From positions 1 to 36,734 of the forward strand of contig CABMDC010000005.1 in assembly GCA_902384795.1 (NCBI GenBank): DNA of 36,734 nucleotides, in the 5' to 3' direction. The position numbers were made by a program, and so were the translations under genes. Source of the stretch: Candidatus Gugararchaeum adminiculabundum. Lineage in GTDB: Archaea; Micrarchaeota; Micrarchaeia; Burarchaeales; Gugararchaeaceae. The notes under the pieces were generated by a model, which was not told the origin of the DNA, did no database searches, and saw only the letters and a list, made by a program, of their open reading frames with translations. This document shows, piece after piece, positions 8,127 through 34,569 of this stretch; positions within the stretch are counted from its first letter, which is position 1, and each line of letters begins with the position of its first letter.

Positions 8127-9197
8127 TCAACGCCATGTCCAATCCCCCAGTTGCAGCTGCTGGGTCACTGAATTATTGTAATTGAGATCCCTGACCCGTA
8201 GCTGCCCCGCGCCCCTGACCCAGAAATCCTGGGTATTGAAATTGAGCACCAGGTTGATGTTCGCCCCGTTAGGGTCATCATGGTGCATGTCAATATTGAA
8301 AATCTGGTCATGGCCGATGTCGATTTCCATATTATCATCACGACCGTTGTTCTGCGAATCATAATAGCGCGTGTCAATCTTGATTTTTGCGTCGCCCTCC
8401 AAATCCCACTGGTGGCAGGGCGAGGTGTAAACGCTTCCGTTCACATCAGTAATCGTGACATTCATTTGCAGGCAAACGGTTGTTTGCGCGTCGCAGCCGC
8501 TATAGCCGTCGACCCAGTCGTCATGCCCTCCGCACGACGCTGCCGAGGCCAGGGTCGCGTTATCCCTGAATGTCGTGTTTATTATGATATCCATCCGCGC
8601 CCCGGTCAGGTAATTCGCGCATCCATAGGCAGATACCGTCTTGGCATGCCCGTGCTTGTCCAGGTAATAGCCATAGCAGCTCAGGTAGGTTTCAGTCCCG
8701 TCATGGTGATGGTCATGGCGCCCATAGTCCAGCGTCATATTGAAAGGAAACACATCCAGGTAATAGTCCATCTGGTCCAGGGAAATTTCCGTCCCATTCA
8801 AATCAAGGAAGCTGATCGCCACATCCGGCGGCTCGTAATAGTTCTCCACAAAATACCCATACTTCAGCATGAAATAATCCTGGCCATCGGGAATCGGAAG
8901 ATACTCCTGCACATTCAGGGTCGCGTTGACTTTGGTCACGTTCCTCCAGTCGCGCGTGAAAGCGTCCTCCGCGACATCGCTGAAAATCCCTGAAATTTTA
9001 TCCGCAGTCAGGTAAAGTGCCTGCTGTTTTTCCGCATCCAGCTGCCGGTCCGCAACTACGAGCGCAAAGCTAAGGAGCAGGGTCGCCAGTATGAATGCCA
9101 CTAGCGCGAATATGAATCCCTTCTGTGTTTTCGATTTCAGTTTCCCCATTTCCCCAATTCTCATTATTTTCTCCTCCGCTCCCGATTCATTTTTCAT
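8127..9197 (-). CDS. large pilin-like protein with His/Asp-rich segment
   Basis: A 356-residue protein with a prepilin-like N-terminus: basic stretch KLKSKTQKG, then FIFALVAF and a hydrophobic helix to about residue 49. After it comes a long, extracellular-looking domain with several N-x-S/T sites and six cysteines (C174 and C193 among them). It holds a striking metal-ligand-like cluster at about 160-186 (GRHDHHHDG, then DKHGH) and further HD/DD pairs (GGHDDW, MHHDD, IGHDQ). The cleavage site has Phe rather than Gln after Gly, so processing is less certain than in the neighbours. It is the last gene of the five-gene pilin block, 4 bp after the preceding gene. Its size and position suggest a minor, possibly tip-located subunit; metal binding is inference from composition. 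Confidence 0.8.
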   Translation of the reverse strand: MKNESGAEEKIMRIGEMGKLKSKTQKGFIFALVAFILATLLLSFALVVADRQLDAEKQQALYLTADKISGIFSDVAEDAFTRDWRNVTKVNATLNVQEYLPIPDGQDYFMLKYGYFVENYYEPPDVAISFLDLNGTEISLDQMDYYLDVFPFNMTLDYGRHDHHHDGTETYLSCYGYYLDKHGHAKTVSAYGCANYLTGARMDIIINTTFRDNATLASAASCGGHDDWVDGYSGCDAQTTVCLQMNVTITDVNGSVYTSPCHQWDLEGDAKIKIDTRYYDSQNNGRDDNMEIDIGHDQIFNIDMHHDDPNGANINLVLNFNTQDFWVRGAGQLRVRDLNYNNSVTQQLQLGDWTWR

Positions 9198-9201
9198 CCA
9201 A

Positions 9202-9903
9202 TTATTTCCGCCAAACTTCTATCTGCACAAATCCGAACTTGTCATTCCTGTCAGTGAAAACCCTTCTTGAAACCCCCACTTCCGCATCCCCCGGATCCCC
9301 GAACGAAACCGTGTAATTTTTCGCGCAGTGCACGAACGGGTGCCTTCCCGGCCCATCCTTGCAGCAGCAGATTTTGCCCCCATTGCAATACCTATCGCCC
9401 ACCTGTTCATAGGTCTCCCCCTGGGCATTGCATCCTGGATTAACATTTTTGCATGTGCCCTCATGCTGGTAACCAAGAAGCTCGCACTTGTCCTTGCAGT
9501 CCAGATTGTCCTTTACTTCATGAATAGTGCACTCCCCCACGGTAACGCTCGCCGCCATGTAGTTCGGCAGGCTCGCATTAATCGTGGAGTTCAGCAGATC
9601 CTCCCCATGGCGCTCATCCAGCGCAAATAATTTATCCAGCGTCCCGTTCTGCTCCAGTGCGTTCCCCAAATCGCGCGCAGCATACGCCAGCACCTGCGCC
9701 CTGCTTGTCGGCCTCTTGTCCGCATCATTCAGGGCGGCAAGCGCGTAGAAAACAAGCATCACAATGATGAGCGCGCTCATGGCGTCCATTAGGAAAGCGA
9801 TTCCCCTGCGCCAATTTTTCCCGTGCCCCGCTTTCTTATTTTTCCTGTTCAACATCATTTTCCGCCCCTTCCCGCGCATCCGCATCAATCCTTCAGTTCT
9901 CAT
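9202..9903 (-). CDS. cysteine-rich pilin-like protein
   Basis: A 233-residue protein with a basic N-terminus (RKNKKAGHGKNWRRG) and one hydrophobic helix (about 33-59, IAFLMDAMSALIIV), a prepilin-like or signal-anchor start. The second half holds ten cysteines packed between about residues 128 and 195. Their order is C, CKDKC, TCKN, PGC, YCNGGKICCC, HC, ending in a rare triple Cys. This spacing recalls small disulphide-rich (knottin or defensin-like) folds and would suit an exported domain. The start overlaps the end of the preceding pilin-like gene by 11 bp, so they are one operon. Several Met codons precede the membrane helix, so the true start could be further in. No family name is claimed. 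Confidence 0.8.
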   Translation of the reverse strand: MRTEGLMRMRGKGRKMMLNRKNKKAGHGKNWRRGIAFLMDAMSALIIVMLVFYALAALNDADKRPTSRAQVLAYAARDLGNALEQNGTLDKLFALDERHGEDLLNSTINASLPNYMAASVTVGECTIHEVKDNLDCKDKCELLGYQHEGTCKNVNPGCNAQGETYEQVGDRYCNGGKICCCKDGPGRHPFVHCAKNYTVSFGDPGDAEVGVSRRVFTDRNDKFGFVQIEVWRK

Positions 9904-10396
9904 AGGCCAGCAAATTCACAGCCACGACCTGGGCATTATAGACCGCAATCCTCCTGGCCGGGGAAACAGCGCTCGAGCCGCTCGTTGGCATGCTTCCCCA
10001 GCTCGCGTTCAGCGTGCTGTTCGCCCTCACAATCGACCCGTTCAGGTAGGTGACGTTCATGTAAAAATCGCTTCTTCCCAATCCCAGCAAGTCCCGCGCG
10101 CCCGAGTAATTCATGGCAGCGAACTGCGCAAGCTTATCCTGGTCTATAATCCCCCGGTTCACCGCCAGCCCGATTCTTTTCACGGTGCTCGCGTTCCACT
10201 CCTCGGGATAGCCCGGCCCGTCCAGCAGCATATCCGTTCCACTGAACGCCTTCACCTGCAAGTCCACCTGGTCGCCCTGCCTTGCCAGGAAATCCCATTG
10301 GGCTTCCATCATGGTGAACAGCACCAGGAAAATTCCAATGGCAACTATCAGCGAAAGCGATGAAAGCTGCCCCTTCCTTTCCCCGCGCAATTTCAT
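9893..10396 (-). CDS. pilin-like protein
   Basis: About 167 residues. A class III signal peptide is clear: MKLRGERKG followed by QLSSLSLIVAIGIFLVLF, with the expected cut after the Gly. The rest is a mixed domain with several N-x-S/T sites (NASTV, NYSG, NVTY, NSTLNAS). I use the ATG at 10396, one base after the TAA of the preceding gene; a TTG at 10414 would overlap that gene and add six residues. The 3' end overlaps the Cys-rich gene. It is likely a minor pilin of the same appendage. Confidence 0.8.
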   Translation of the reverse strand: MKLRGERKGQLSSLSLIVAIGIFLVLFTMMEAQWDFLARQGDQVDLQVKAFSGTDMLLDGPGYPEEWNASTVKRIGLAVNRGIIDQDKLAQFAAMNYSGARDLLGLGRSDFYMNVTYLNGSIVRANSTLNASWGSMPTSGSSAVSPARRIAVYNAQVVAVNLLAYEN

Positions 10397-10397
10397 T

Positions 10398-10814
10398 TTA
10401 GGTAGTTTTTGCAATCACAATCACTCCGTCATTATTTGTAATGTTATACCAGCTATCCGCCGTAAGGTTGAACGGCGTGCCAATGCTCCCGTTTCCGTAT
10501 CTCAGGATTCCCGGCCTTATTATGGAATTGAACTCCCCGCCGGAATAATTGACGGTCACAAACCCTTCATACACCGTCACATTGAAAAGCGCCTGGTCAA
10601 AATAGTACAAATAGAACCGGTCATAATATCCCGGAGTCGCAGCACTGTTGATTTCGCTTGCCACAATTCCGGAAATTCTCCGCCCTTCCTGCTCATACTT
10701 GCTTTCAATGACAAGCGCATGCTTTTCCACAACCCTTACCTGAATGAACATCAGGATTACGATGAGCAGGCCAGAGATAATGAGCACTTCAATGGCAGTT
10801 TGTCCCTTTCCCAT
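10398..10814 (-). CDS. pilin-like protein with class III signal peptide
   Basis: A 138-residue protein starting MGKGQTAIEVL, a very short prepilin leader. Gly-Gln is the expected cut site, the Glu at mature position +5 is the one needed for pilin assembly in type IV pilins, and a hydrophobic helix follows. The mature domain has aromatic-rich beta segments (YYDRFYLYYFDQ) and N-x-S/T sites. It lies 42 bp after the first pilin gene and 1 bp before the next. Its short size and canonical leader make it a candidate major or structural subunit along with the 10857-11303 gene. Confidence 0.85.
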   Translation of the reverse strand: MGKGQTAIEVLIISGLLIVILMFIQVRVVEKHALVIESKYEQEGRRISGIVASEINSAATPGYYDRFYLYYFDQALFNVTVYEGFVTVNYSGGEFNSIIRPGILRYGNGSIGTPFNLTADSWYNITNNDGVIVIAKTT

Positions 10815-10856
10815 TTTAGCATCCCCGCGCTACTCCGCCAGCAACTTATCCTACCC

Positions 10857-11303
10857 CTACTCCGAAATATTCACAGTTCCGCCAAGCATCTCCACATTCA
10901 CGAAATGCCTGCCGGTTACGGTGGGCAAAGTTCCTGTCACATTGCCCCTTGCCAGGGCATAAATATCAGCGTAAGCCCCTTCTGCAATGGTCAGGTTGTA
11001 CCTTAGTTCCCTTCCGTAAATTCCGGTCCCATCAGTCTGAACCCCATCCGGCACATAGATTACAATCTTTGTTTTCGCGCCCGGCCCCTGGGAGTAGACG
11101 GTATCCACGGCATTCGCGAGCGCATCAACCGCCACCCTTGCCTGCGCGCTCCTGTTCGTGATTCTAGTGTTCACCGAGGTGTAGTAGATTATCGGGACCA
11201 GGATAAGCAGTAGCACGGCAAGAACGAGCACATACTCTACCCCGACTTGGCCAAGTTTTTTCCAGCTCGCCTTCGCTTTCCCCGCACGCGCGTTCCTATT
11301 CAT
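10857..11303 (-). CDS. pilin-like protein, first gene of the pilin block
   Basis: About 148 residues: MNRNARAGKAKASWKKLG, then QVGVEYVLVLAVLLLILVP, a class III signal peptide with Gly-Gln cut and Glu at +5. The mature domain has an Ala-rich helix (SAQARVAVDALANAV) and then beta strands with N-x-T sites (NLTI, NVTG, NISE). I chose ATG 11303 because a TATA-like box lies 25 nt upstream. The frame stays open further up, but that extension runs into the dispersed repeat at 11344-11535 and adds an unlikely leader. It is likely the promoter-proximal, best-expressed pilin of the locus. Confidence 0.85.
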   Translation of the reverse strand: MNRNARAGKAKASWKKLGQVGVEYVLVLAVLLLILVPIIYYTSVNTRITNRSAQARVAVDALANAVDTVYSQGPGAKTKIVIYVPDGVQTDGTGIYGRELRYNLTIAEGAYADIYALARGNVTGTLPTVTGRHFVNVEMLGGTVNISE

Positions 11304-11336: not shown

Positions 11337-11343
11337 CTTAACC

Positions 11344-11535
11344 GCCCATCCTTTTCTTTTGCGACGCGATTCGGCTTCGCCGAATGCGCCCATTTTGCCT
11401 GCGGGCAAAATCTGGAAAGAAAAGGCTGGTCGAACCCAAAAGAAAAACGACTACCTACTGCGCTCGCGGATGAACTCGCGCGCGGAGCGCGCTCGCAACC
11501 GCTCACGGTTTAGCCCAAATTAGATGTTTTTGTTT
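11344..11535 (+). repeat. dispersed hairpin-rich repeat, copy 1
   Basis: This segment matches 13027-13157 in the same orientation. A block of 45 bp (11416-11460 against 13046-13090) is identical, the next 44 bp match at 38 positions, and both ends share short motifs (GCCCATCCTTTTCTTT on the left, GATGTTTTTG on the right). Copy 1 has about 60 extra bases, which carry two perfect stem-loops: ATTCGGC with GCCGAAT around a TTC loop, and ATTTTGCC with GGCAAAAT around TGCG. These lie inside a longer inverted repeat, CCTTTTCTTT with AAAGAAAAGG. A self-complementary GAGCGCGCTC follows near 11485. It lies between a gene end (11536) and the pilin promoter. The class of element is unknown. Confidence 0.85.
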
Positions 11536-12948
11536 CTAGGTTGCCTGCGGCTTCGGCTTCATAATTTCCATAACCGCCCTTCCTGTTTCCTCGTCCCCTA
11601 TCTTTGCCAGAATCGAAATTACCTGCGAATACTTGAGCCCCTCCAATAATTCCGCAATCATTTCATATGGCCCGGGCGCATGGAACAGAATCTCCGCCAC
11701 ATGCCCGTGATTATGCGGTTCCGCCGCCATTGCCTTTACCGCTTCAGCACGCTGTTCCACTCCGAGCTTTTCCACCAATAGGTGGCCCGCCTGGTCATAG
11801 TCCGGAATTTTGCACAGCTCCAGCATTATCTCGACCACGCCATGAATGCCCCGCCCGTTTTTAATGCTCCTTGCGGCCATCTGGCTTGTCACGTTGTCGC
11901 GTGTGCTTTCTTCCAGCTGCCCCATGAATTCAGCAAACAATCCTGGATTTTCCTTCTTTTCCTTCAGCAGCTTTTCTGCAATGCCAATGGCAATCGGCAT
12001 GCCCTCTTCGGTCTGAACCAGCCTTTCAAAAGGCAGGGTAAGCCTTAGCAAACACTCTGTTCGGCCACTCTCATCCGCCCTATTTGCATTGTTGAGCAAG
12101 AATAGGAAAAAGCCCGGGGCATTTTTCTCTCCGGCCCCTAAGAGCAATTCCTCTTTCGAATACATAGAAGCTACGTGCATCCATGCCCGGTTCACAAAAT
12201 CCGGGCCGTTCTTTGCCGCCATCAGCACGTCAGCCGCAACATCGGCCTTGCCGTTTTGCCGGTACGTTTCCATGATTGCGGCGCATCCCTCAGGAGTGTA
12301 CTTTGAAAGCACCTGGGCAACCTCTGCATTAAACCTGAATCTGTCCTCGTGAATCGCCTCAAAATACCCGGCCTTTTCCTGTACCGTAAACGCCTTCAAA
12401 ATTTTCAGCCTGGTTTCCCCGGTCAGCATGCCCATCAAAATCTGGAGCGCTTCCGCAGGAATGCTCCCGCTTCGCACAACATTCACTCCTATGTCGGTCA
12501 CTTCCTTGCCGTTCCCTATTGCTATCGCCATTTCCTGCGTATCCACTCCTCTCAAAACCTGCAGGCAAACATGAAGTTTTCCATCATTTGCCAGTTCCTC
12601 AAGCCTTTCTGCAAACGCGCCGCATATCAGCCTTGTGTTCATTGTGGCATAATACTCATCCCAGCTCGCAGCCTCTTCCCAGTTAATGCTTCTAATTGTC
12701 TCATCCAAAACGTCATTTCTTCCAATTGCATGTTTGAGTCTTGGCTCGAGTTCGGCCATGGCTTCGCTCAGTGTCCTTGTTTTATCCTCACCAGCCCGGG
12801 AAACCTGTTCTTTTAATACGGCGCAGCACAATTCATGGAACTTTCGGAATTCAGCGACCATTTTCGCCGCATCATTTGTATCTGAAATAGATCCCTTAAC
12901 CTCTTTCACGGTCAAGTTTAATTGTTTAGTCTGATTCATTATCGCCAC
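11536..12948 (-). CDS. orphan helical-repeat protein (470 aa) flanked by direct repeats
   Basis: A soluble, almost wholly helical protein without signal peptide or membrane segments. From about residue 150 on, the pattern of paired amphipathic helices (EALQILMGMLTGETRLKIL; GGIAEKLLKEKKE-type; YEMIAELLEGLKYSQVISIL) looks like an alpha-solenoid. The last repeats (ILAKIGDEETGRAVMEIM) faintly recall the N-terminal helical domain of MgtE, but no channel domain is present. The GTG start is chosen because GGAGG lies 7 nt upstream; an ATG three codons in is possible. The gene is bounded on both sides by direct copies of the same hairpin-rich repeat, so it may have been inserted or duplicated as a cassette. 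Function unknown. Confidence 0.85.
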   Translation of the reverse strand: MAIMNQTKQLNLTVKEVKGSISDTNDAAKMVAEFRKFHELCCAVLKEQVSRAGEDKTRTLSEAMAELEPRLKHAIGRNDVLDETIRSINWEEAASWDEYYATMNTRLICGAFAERLEELANDGKLHVCLQVLRGVDTQEMAIAIGNGKEVTDIGVNVVRSGSIPAEALQILMGMLTGETRLKILKAFTVQEKAGYFEAIHEDRFRFNAEVAQVLSKYTPEGCAAIMETYRQNGKADVAADVLMAAKNGPDFVNRAWMHVASMYSKEELLLGAGEKNAPGFFLFLLNNANRADESGRTECLLRLTLPFERLVQTEEGMPIAIGIAEKLLKEKKENPGLFAEFMGQLEESTRDNVTSQMAARSIKNGRGIHGVVEIMLELCKIPDYDQAGHLLVEKLGVEQRAEAVKAMAAEPHNHGHVAEILFHAPGPYEMIAELLEGLKYSQVISILAKIGDEETGRAVMEIMKPKPQAT

Positions 12949-13026
12949 ACACTCCCCTCCCTACCGCTAATATGTGTGCAAAATTGTTTATAAATGCTGT
13001 GTTTTATTTTAGCAATTAGTGTACCT

Positions 13027-13157
13027 GCCCATCCTTTTCTTTACGAAAGAAAAGGCTGGTCGAACCCAAAAGAAAAACGACTACCTACTGTGCTCGCAGA
13101 TGAACTCGCGCCCACAGCGCGCTCGCATCCGCTCGCCTTTATTGGATGTTTTTGCTT
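13027..13157 (+). repeat. dispersed hairpin-rich repeat, copy 2
   Basis: The second copy of the element at 11344-11535, same orientation, without the ~60-bp double-hairpin insert. Here CCTTTTCTTT and AAAGAAAAGG are separated by only three bases (ACG), giving a perfect 10-bp stem at 13033-13055. The 45-bp core is identical to copy 1. The right end runs into the last codons of the phosphohexomutase gene, whose stop is at 13139. Confidence 0.85.
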
Positions 13158-14485
13158 ACGAGATTTTTCGCTTTTTCGTAAACTTCAGTTAATCTCTTTT
13201 CGCTTTTCCCTTCACAAGTAATCCGAATTATAGGTTCAGTCCCGCTCGCCCTAACCAGCACCCACGCATCCTCAAAATCAGCACGCAACCCGTCCTCGCG
13301 CGAAATCTTCGCCCCGGCAAAAACATTCTCAAATTCTTTCCCAATCTTCTCCATTGTTTTCCCTTTCTCCCCGCACCTGATTTTCTCCCTTCTCATCTCG
13401 TAAATCGGAACTCTTTTCTTGGCAGCATTCAGGCTCCCAGCAGAACAGAACAATTCCACCAATTTCAGCGCAGTCAGAACCCCGTCAGCAACAAGCGCGC
13501 TTTCAGGGAAAACATACTCGCCGCACGGTTCTCCTCCGAAAACAGCATCCTTCTTTTTCACTTCATCCGCAACATAGAGCGAGCCAACTCTTGTGACAAA
13601 TGGTTTCCCGCCAAATTTCCTAATAAACTCAAGCACTCCCAGCGATGCCTCAACAGTTGTAACAATTGTCCCCTTCTTTCCAGTCAGCACCTTTTCGCAA
13701 ATCAACGCCAATTGTGCATCCAATCCAACCAGTTCCCCTTTCTCATCAACAGCAATCGCCCTGTCCGCATCCCCGTCGTGCGCAATTCCCAAATCAGCTT
13801 TTTCAGCAATCACTCTCTTCATCAGTTCCTTCAAATTCTCAGCGTTAGGTTCCAATCCCCGGCCAAACTCGCCATTTAATTTGCAGTTAATTTCAATTAC
13901 CTGGCAACCAGCCCTTCGCAATAATTCCGGAGTAATCGCGCTTCCTGCCCCATCTCCGCAGTCAATCACAACTTTTGGTTTTTTCCGGGCAATCAGCTTC
14001 ACATCGCAATTCTTCAGGCACAAATCAATGTGCTCCTCAACTGCCCCATGCACCAATTTATCCTTGCCAACAGATTTCCAATCCACTATCCTGAATTCTT
14101 TTTTCTCAATTCTTCTGGCAATCTCCCCCTCTAATTTTTTGCTCGCTTCCAGCCCCTTGTCAAAAATCTTCAGCCCGTTATACTCCGGCGGATTGTGCGA
14201 GGCAGTGATCATCACTCCGCGCGCATTGTGCCTTTTCACGGCCAGCGCCAAAGTCGGAGTCGGAATAATCCCCGCCCTAAGTACATTCGCCCCGCAGGAG
14301 TTCGCGCCAGCGGCAACTGCATATTCCAGCACAGTCCCGCTCTTGCGCGTATCCCTGGCAATGACAATAGTCTCGCCCACCTTTCCCTCGCTTGCCAGGG
14401 CCATTCCCACCTGCAGGGCTAGCTCGGAAGTGACATCCTTTCCGAAAATTCCCCTTATTCCGCTTGTCCCGAACATGAAAACCAC
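13139..14485 (-). CDS. glmM: phosphohexomutase, archaeal phosphoglucosamine/phosphomannomutase type
   Basis: A 448-residue alpha-D-phosphohexomutase that interconverts 1- and 6-phosphates of a hexose or hexosamine in sugar-nucleotide supply. Seen in sequence: N-terminal FGTSGIRG; the phosphoserine loop TASHNP with S96; the metal loop DGDADR at 237-242; the sugar-specificity loop GGEPCGEYVFPE at 317-328; and the phosphate-binding RASGTEP near 419. Length and the GGEP(C/S)GE loop fit the archaeal GlmM-like group, but phosphomannomutase activity cannot be ruled out from sequence. The GTG start has AGGTG 5 nt before it and TTTTAAAG about 25 nt upstream; ATG 14476 is an alternative. Divergent from the orphan at 14573. 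The last codons overlap the end of repeat copy 2. Confidence 0.9.
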   Translation of the reverse strand: MVFMFGTSGIRGIFGKDVTSELALQVGMALASEGKVGETIVIARDTRKSGTVLEYAVAAGANSCGANVLRAGIIPTPTLALAVKRHNARGVMITASHNPPEYNGLKIFDKGLEASKKLEGEIARRIEKKEFRIVDWKSVGKDKLVHGAVEEHIDLCLKNCDVKLIARKKPKVVIDCGDGAGSAITPELLRRAGCQVIEINCKLNGEFGRGLEPNAENLKELMKRVIAEKADLGIAHDGDADRAIAVDEKGELVGLDAQLALICEKVLTGKKGTIVTTVEASLGVLEFIRKFGGKPFVTRVGSLYVADEVKKKDAVFGGEPCGEYVFPESALVADGVLTALKLVELFCSAGSLNAAKKRVPIYEMRREKIRCGEKGKTMEKIGKEFENVFAGAKISREDGLRADFEDAWVLVRASGTEPIIRITCEGKSEKRLTEVYEKAKNLVSKNIQ

Positions 14486-34379: not shown

Positions 34380-34569
34380 GGGCCGGTAGCTTAGTTTGGT
34401 TGGAGCGTTCGACTGATATAAGCTTTTTCTTTCCCGAAAGAAAAACCTTAAGGAAAAAGAAAGGGTTTTGCTCAAGGAAAGAAAACCCCTGGGAAAAATC
34501 AGGGAATGTCAGTTCGGAAACAAGCTTTCGGAAATCGAAAGGTCGAGAGTTCAAATCTCTCCCGGCCCA
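34380..34569 (+). tRNA. tRNA-Ile (GAT anticodon), with intron
   Basis: A full cloverleaf after removing 34419-34533. Acceptor GGGCCGG pairs with CCGGCCC with discriminator A at 34569. The D stem is GCTT/GAGC and the anticodon stem TTCGA/TCGAA. The loop is C-T-GAT-A plus A38, with the anticodon at 34415-34417. The variable loop is AGGTC, and the T stem GAGAG/CTCTC encloses the loop TTCAAAT. CCA is not encoded. GAT reads ATC and ATT codons. A TATA-like box lies 29 nt upstream. Confidence 0.95.
34419..34533 (+). other. 115-nt tRNA intron with bulge-helix-bulge ends
   Basis: The exon-intron ends form a canonical archaeal splicing motif. CTGA (34413-34416) pairs with TCGG (34528-34531). The 3-nt bulges are TAT (cut between A34418 and T34419) and AAA (cut between 34533 and 34534). 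Inside, AAGC (34420-34423) pairs with GCTT (34524-34527). The body folds into further hairpins: a perfect 10-bp stem TTTTTCTTTC / GAAAGAAAAA, then GGGTTTT / AAAACCC and CCCTG / CAGGG. No protein or homing endonuclease is encoded. Splicing by the tRNA-splicing endonuclease is expected. Confidence 0.9.

Follow-up and report, generated by a model that had tools for sequence, protein, structure and literature searches.

A class-wide family of tRNA-linked hairpins, here called B, appears to have strayed to a protein-coding locus of Candidatus Gugararchaeum adminiculabundum, where a block containing it would have been duplicated around an orphan gene and a second hairpin element, A, would have been inserted into one of the two copies. 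The tail of B resembles a third strand laid against its own hairpin. We assign this reading as a whole a probability of about 0.7. The window is the whole stretch of DNA analysed, 36,734 nucleotides of contig CABMDC010000005.1.

Two repeat copies and the gene between them

The copies c1 (11344–11535) and c2 (13027–13157) are homologous, lie on the same strand and stand one on either side of the orphan gene, as the earlier note had it. Pairwise comparison gives 93% identity over 90 nt between 11415–11504 and 13045–13134, which share a long core free of differences, and a gapped alignment extends the homology to 11339–11542 and 13022–13165 (score 183; best of 200 shuffles, 41). Three modules make up the copies. 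B is an element of ~50 nt, formed by a T-rich/A-rich hairpin, a short covarying stem and then a purine tail, with the layout GCCCATCC-TTTTCTTT-loop-AAAGAAAAGG-CTGG-TCGAACCC-AAAAGAAAA. A consists of two imperfect hairpins, one bearing a bulged G and the other a bulged C, and C is a GA/GA-type hairpin. Covariance models of B (R1) and of A (R2) were run against the whole 1.47-Mb genome. The features in the window are the following.

11344–11535, plus strand: copy c1, B with A inserted in its hairpin loop, then the C hairpin and what looks like a remnant of the phosphomannomutase 3' end (alignment)
11344–11361, plus strand: B in c1, 5' outer stem and pyrimidine arm, GCCCATCCTTTTCTTTTG (sequence; R1 match 11344–11444, E=7e-11)
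11362–11416, plus strand: A element in c1, a hairpin pair (one bulged G, one bulged C) within the B loop (R2 match, E=7.7e-7)
11417–11450, plus strand: B in c1, purine arm, outer stem and mirror-symmetric purine tail (sequence; R1 model)
11451–11505, plus strand: C module in c1, a GA/GA-type hairpin common to c1 and c2, and partly matched at G000:C7:23106
11536–12948, minus strand: 470-residue orphan gene between c1 and c2 (open reading frame)
13027–13157, plus strand: copy c2, insert-free B (13027–13077) and C, the right end being the last phosphomannomutase codons (R1 match 13027–13077, E=2.7e-16)
13139–13165, minus strand: 3' end of the phosphomannomutase gene, with a diverged form at about 11518–11542 (alignment)
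34380–34569, plus strand: tRNA-Ile(GAU) with an intron at 34419–34533 (R1 match 34417–34464; spliced form called as tRNA-Ile)

The two copies are several substitutions and one nested insert apart, the insert being ~50 extra nt in c1 that form the two-hairpin A element within the loop of the terminal hairpin. Other copies of A lie before B or, inverted, between arm and tail, and at G000:C12:167968–168066 in this genome, adjoining a tRNA gene, one A lies inside another. Given these varying positions relative to B, and its occurrence within itself, A is a separate inserted element; it is multi-copy and nested, and is found between genes and near tRNAs. Three further A elements (G000:C12:211487, C4:62411 and C2:41867) lie inside open frames of more than 300 codons, and may have been inserted into protein genes or at their edges.

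The right ends of both copies extend beyond a stop codon. In c2 this end is the final ~25 nt of the phosphomannomutase gene on the minus strand, and the orphan's stop codon falls inside the equivalent stretch of c1, so that, read in the sense of the genes, both copies begin with a stretch like the phosphomannomutase end. The phosphomannomutases of relatives are of about this length, and the end found here is therefore probably native. Because these final ~25 nt belong to the duplicated unit, local duplication or recombination best explains the bracketing, and is a reasonable reading of it. A block of phosphomannomutase 3' end, C hairpin and B would have been duplicated around the orphan, thereby enclosing it, and A would have entered the loop of c1 afterwards. 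Since the repeat unit holds the gene's 3' end, recombination between c1 and c2 would drop the orphan and leave an intact phosphomannomutase with one copy. Gene order around the phosphomannomutase is not conserved in the order. Two suggestions of the earlier note have held up: a recombination-based duplication, through the neighbouring gene end contained in the repeat unit, and a composite of small non-autonomous elements, in the form of three nested hairpin modules.

The codon-position composition of the orphan is coding-like. It has no Pfam or NCBIfam match and no homologue among 97 related genomes of the same order and class, and a wider protein search returned only two short matches at 38%, in Bacillus-type genomes, with E of about 1e-4. 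A single-sequence fold is predicted to be all-helical with low confidence (pLDDT 58), a model too weak for identifying the protein by structure search. The possibility that the orphan is a decayed copy of the phosphomannomutase was rejected, as their global DNA similarity was no better than that of codon-shuffled controls; the best local score, 35, barely exceeded the shuffles' maximum of 31. On the minus strand at 8127–11303, adjoining the orphan, there is a run of short genes without Pfam match, several of which have an N-terminal hydrophobic stretch typical of pilin-like proteins. Both c1 and c2 are antisense relative to the flanking genes and have no tRNA nearby. A degenerate tRNA at either copy was discarded after ARAGORN and an Rfam tRNA search gave no match, and the Rfam search of the repeats yielded nothing above cut-off apart from tRNAs adjoining repeats.

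The B family and tRNA genes

The genome contains 16 copies of B in the R1 search, nine of which are linked to a tRNA, either in its intron or at a distance of exactly 2 nt behind it, an association with its 42 tRNA genes that has a binomial p of 1.6e-13. Four copies start exactly 2 nt past the discriminator base of a tRNA (Pro, Ala and two Val), and five are in introns, those of tRNA-Gly-UCC, tRNA-Thr-CGU, a Leu tRNA, one unassigned tRNA and tRNA-Ile-GAU. In an earlier tally of eight tRNA-linked copies, all eight were in the tRNA sense. The B elements of c1 and c2 are among the copies without a tRNA link. The tRNA-Ile(GAU) of the window was missed in its unspliced form by both ARAGORN and Rfam; its intron starts with a B-type hairpin and a mirror tail, with a 13-nt mirror match, GAAAAAGAAAGGG.

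Beyond this genome, R1 matches were found in 24 of 60 genomes of the class Micrarchaeia, with up to 34 matches per genome. The other 36, which include every f9 genome searched, had no match and serve as negative controls. In two genomes of a sister family, G001 and G006 (family f2), B sits in the T-loop of many tRNA genes, directly after TTCAAA or TTCGAA. In-silico removal of the T-loop intron gave ARAGORN-valid tRNAs (Leu, Lys, Arg, Gly, Ala, Asn, Thr and His) at 16 of the 34 loci tested, and several of the loci that were not restored visibly hold a second interruption. The Rfam tRNA model detects just one of 12 T-loop-interrupted loci; the T-loop introns explain why such tRNA genes are missed in these genomes. 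In these 16 T-loop cases and in the tRNA-Ile of the window, B lies within a tRNA gene whose exons join to a valid tRNA, which is not the case for c1 and c2. In several T-loop introns the exon TTCRAA can, judged by eye, pair with an intron TTYGAA near the 3' site, a candidate for the bulge-helix-bulge, or a relaxed version of it, expected where introns are spliced.

The elements of the f2 genomes are 96–100% identical between different tRNAs of one genome, the exons of which share 54–69%, the background level. When the same tRNA is compared between the two genomes, the elements are 73–87% identical; for tRNA-Lys of the two sister genomes, the exons are 93% identical and the elements 73%. Identity that is higher within than between genomes is what introns would leave if they spread after the two genomes had parted, and transposed introns are characterised by such near-identity between different tRNA genes of a single genome. 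In our reading, the usual home of B is the tRNA transcript: it forms the core of T-loop or anticodon-loop introns, or follows the tRNA 3' end directly, and it has probably spread between tRNA genes within genomes, straying now and then to intergenic sites such as c1 and c2. A point against this reading is that no transposase or reverse transcriptase was found tied to B.

The genome encodes a splicing endonuclease, EndA, of 400 aa, with a full-length match to the three-unit epsilon2 EndA of ARMAN-2 (PDB 4fz2, E=3.8e-128), and by homology it is probably of the broad-specificity epsilon2 type. Epsilon2 EndA is reported to have broad specificity and to cleave non-canonical introns (PMC6379350, PMC4033280). 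The B introns are presumably removed by this enzyme. Extra EndA-like genes are present at G001:C64:9776 (171-aa frame) and G006:C75:7020 (231-aa frame), in the f2 genomes, whose tRNAs are full of T-loop introns.

The distribution of B bears on two other accounts of the locus. The repeats could mark the ends at which a gene cassette or small mobile element carrying the orphan recombines, a cassette being among the proposals of the earlier note. The lack of any relative of the orphan in the 97 genomes would fit such a unit, and so would direct copies that include the end of the neighbouring gene, which excision would leave intact. However, B occurs at many places in this genome, where it is tied to tRNAs, and the orphan is missing from all 23 other genomes that contain B; no integrase or transposase was recognised among the genes adjoining the copies, and the copies differ by several substitutions and the nested insert. 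The cassette is accordingly a weak reading, and unlikely. The search for the core that the earlier note called for has shown a widespread repeat, which also occurs without the orphan. Its ordinary-intergenic-repeat alternative is right in that B occurs genome-wide, but not in the placement of the copies, which favour tRNA genes over random gene ends.

A still less probable account, which we consider very unlikely, takes the repeats as ordinary intergenic palindromes of REP/BIME type moved by a Y1 (RAYT-type) transposase, with tRNA neighbourhoods as merely tolerated sites. The paired imperfect hairpins of A, multi-copy, nested and found between genes and near tRNAs, resemble such elements, and the genome has one Y1 transposase gene. 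This gene, however, is not flanked by A or B, and was rejected as a mobiliser for lack of linkage to either; G001 and G006, the genomes richest in tRNA-embedded B, have no Y1 match at all. Moreover, B starts at fixed positions relative to the tRNA and keeps a mirror tail, for which REPs have no need.

The mirror tail of B

The tail of B is a mirror copy of the purine arm of its hairpin, position by position. The length of the T-run before C in the arm equals that of the A-run before G in the tail in 95 of 99 de-duplicated elements, and when tails were shuffled within genomes this equality fell to 58.5% on average (maximum 70.7%), a control that accounts in part for the kinship of related copies, which are not independent. 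Among the asymmetric, and thus informative, elements the mirror reading fits 71 of 73 and the antiparallel reading none, so that the run lengths exclude a tail paired antiparallel to the T-rich arm. Variants with several C/G positions have mirror matches of 12–14 nt. A second hairpin subfamily occurs outside tRNAs (G000:C1:81982, C20:51636, C1:171410 and C12:62314), and three of its four members have the linker CCCCGAATGG and a tail mirroring 12–14 nt, several G positions included.

At the level of sequence, this mirror tail is the pattern of a class II intrastrand purine-motif triplex, in the order Y-R-RH with the third strand antiparallel to the purine arm (A.A-T, G.G-C). The first loop is usually 0–4 nt, and the distance from purine arm to tail is about 15–17 nt, including the covarying clamp stem, which is longer than the loops of 1–6 nt used in the triplex search of Holder et al. 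2015 (PMC4666352). Most likely, the tail folds back on the hairpin as a third strand, either as a triplex in single-stranded DNA or in an equivalent tail-on-hairpin fold of RNA. Purine-motif triplexes cannot form in RNA, according to PMC4666352; hence, single-stranded DNA is the relevant form, or the tail binds differently in RNA, for example in a pseudoknot.

B might act purely as RNA, with no DNA triplex involved: in an H-type pseudoknot, its A-rich tail would occupy the groove of the hairpin while the tail end paired with the loop; such a fold would stabilise the intron or the tRNA trailer. Its tail topology would be identical, tRNA-linked copies are in the tRNA sense, and in 39 of 48 elements, with 24 expected, the first base of the loop is complementary to the one that follows the A-run of the tail. 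An A-rich strand in a groove, however, needs no exact register of the tail Gs, of which there are several per tail, with the C-G pairs. We regard the pseudoknot as possible, if doubtful. More tentative still is the proposal that B is a self-spreading tRNA-intron element whose single-stranded intrastrand triplex would be needed for insertion into tRNA genes or for splicing.

Known systems and the meaning of the family

Transposed tRNA introns are known in Thermoproteales (Fujishima et al. 2010, described in PMC4033280). As far as that account goes, the two cases are alike in having similar introns in different tRNA genes, non-canonical positions and a broad-specificity endonuclease. B differs in its lineage, Micrarchaeia, in that the common part is one hairpin-plus-mirror-tail element, and in its occurrence behind tRNAs and outside tRNA genes. 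In bacteria, repeats of the class II intrastrand purine-motif triplex type are known, for example BoxC/TM-ECO of E. coli (Holder et al. 2015, PMC4666352). With these, B shares the arrangement of pyrimidine arm, purine arm and a 3' third purine strand antiparallel to the purine arm, and the presence of many copies per genome. In contrast to BoxC/TM-ECO, B is A/T-rich, has a longer second loop with a covarying clamp stem, and lies mostly inside tRNA introns and trailers. The A element, in turn, is similar to REP/BIME repeats with their RAYT in its short paired imperfect hairpins, conserved bulges, nesting and copy number, but shows no RAYT linkage and is nested in hairpin loops and tRNA-linked elements. 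A limited literature search found no paper that joins tRNA-intron transposition with intrastrand triplex repeats, or that describes B.

B itself is a more interesting object than the bracketing of the orphan. To our knowledge, the spread of archaeal tRNA introns is an unsolved problem. B bears on it, being well defined and recurrent: it has very recent copies, its insertion positions are fixed, and its structure can be tested. The covariation of its mirror tail looks like selection for a three-stranded arrangement, of which natural cases are unusual.
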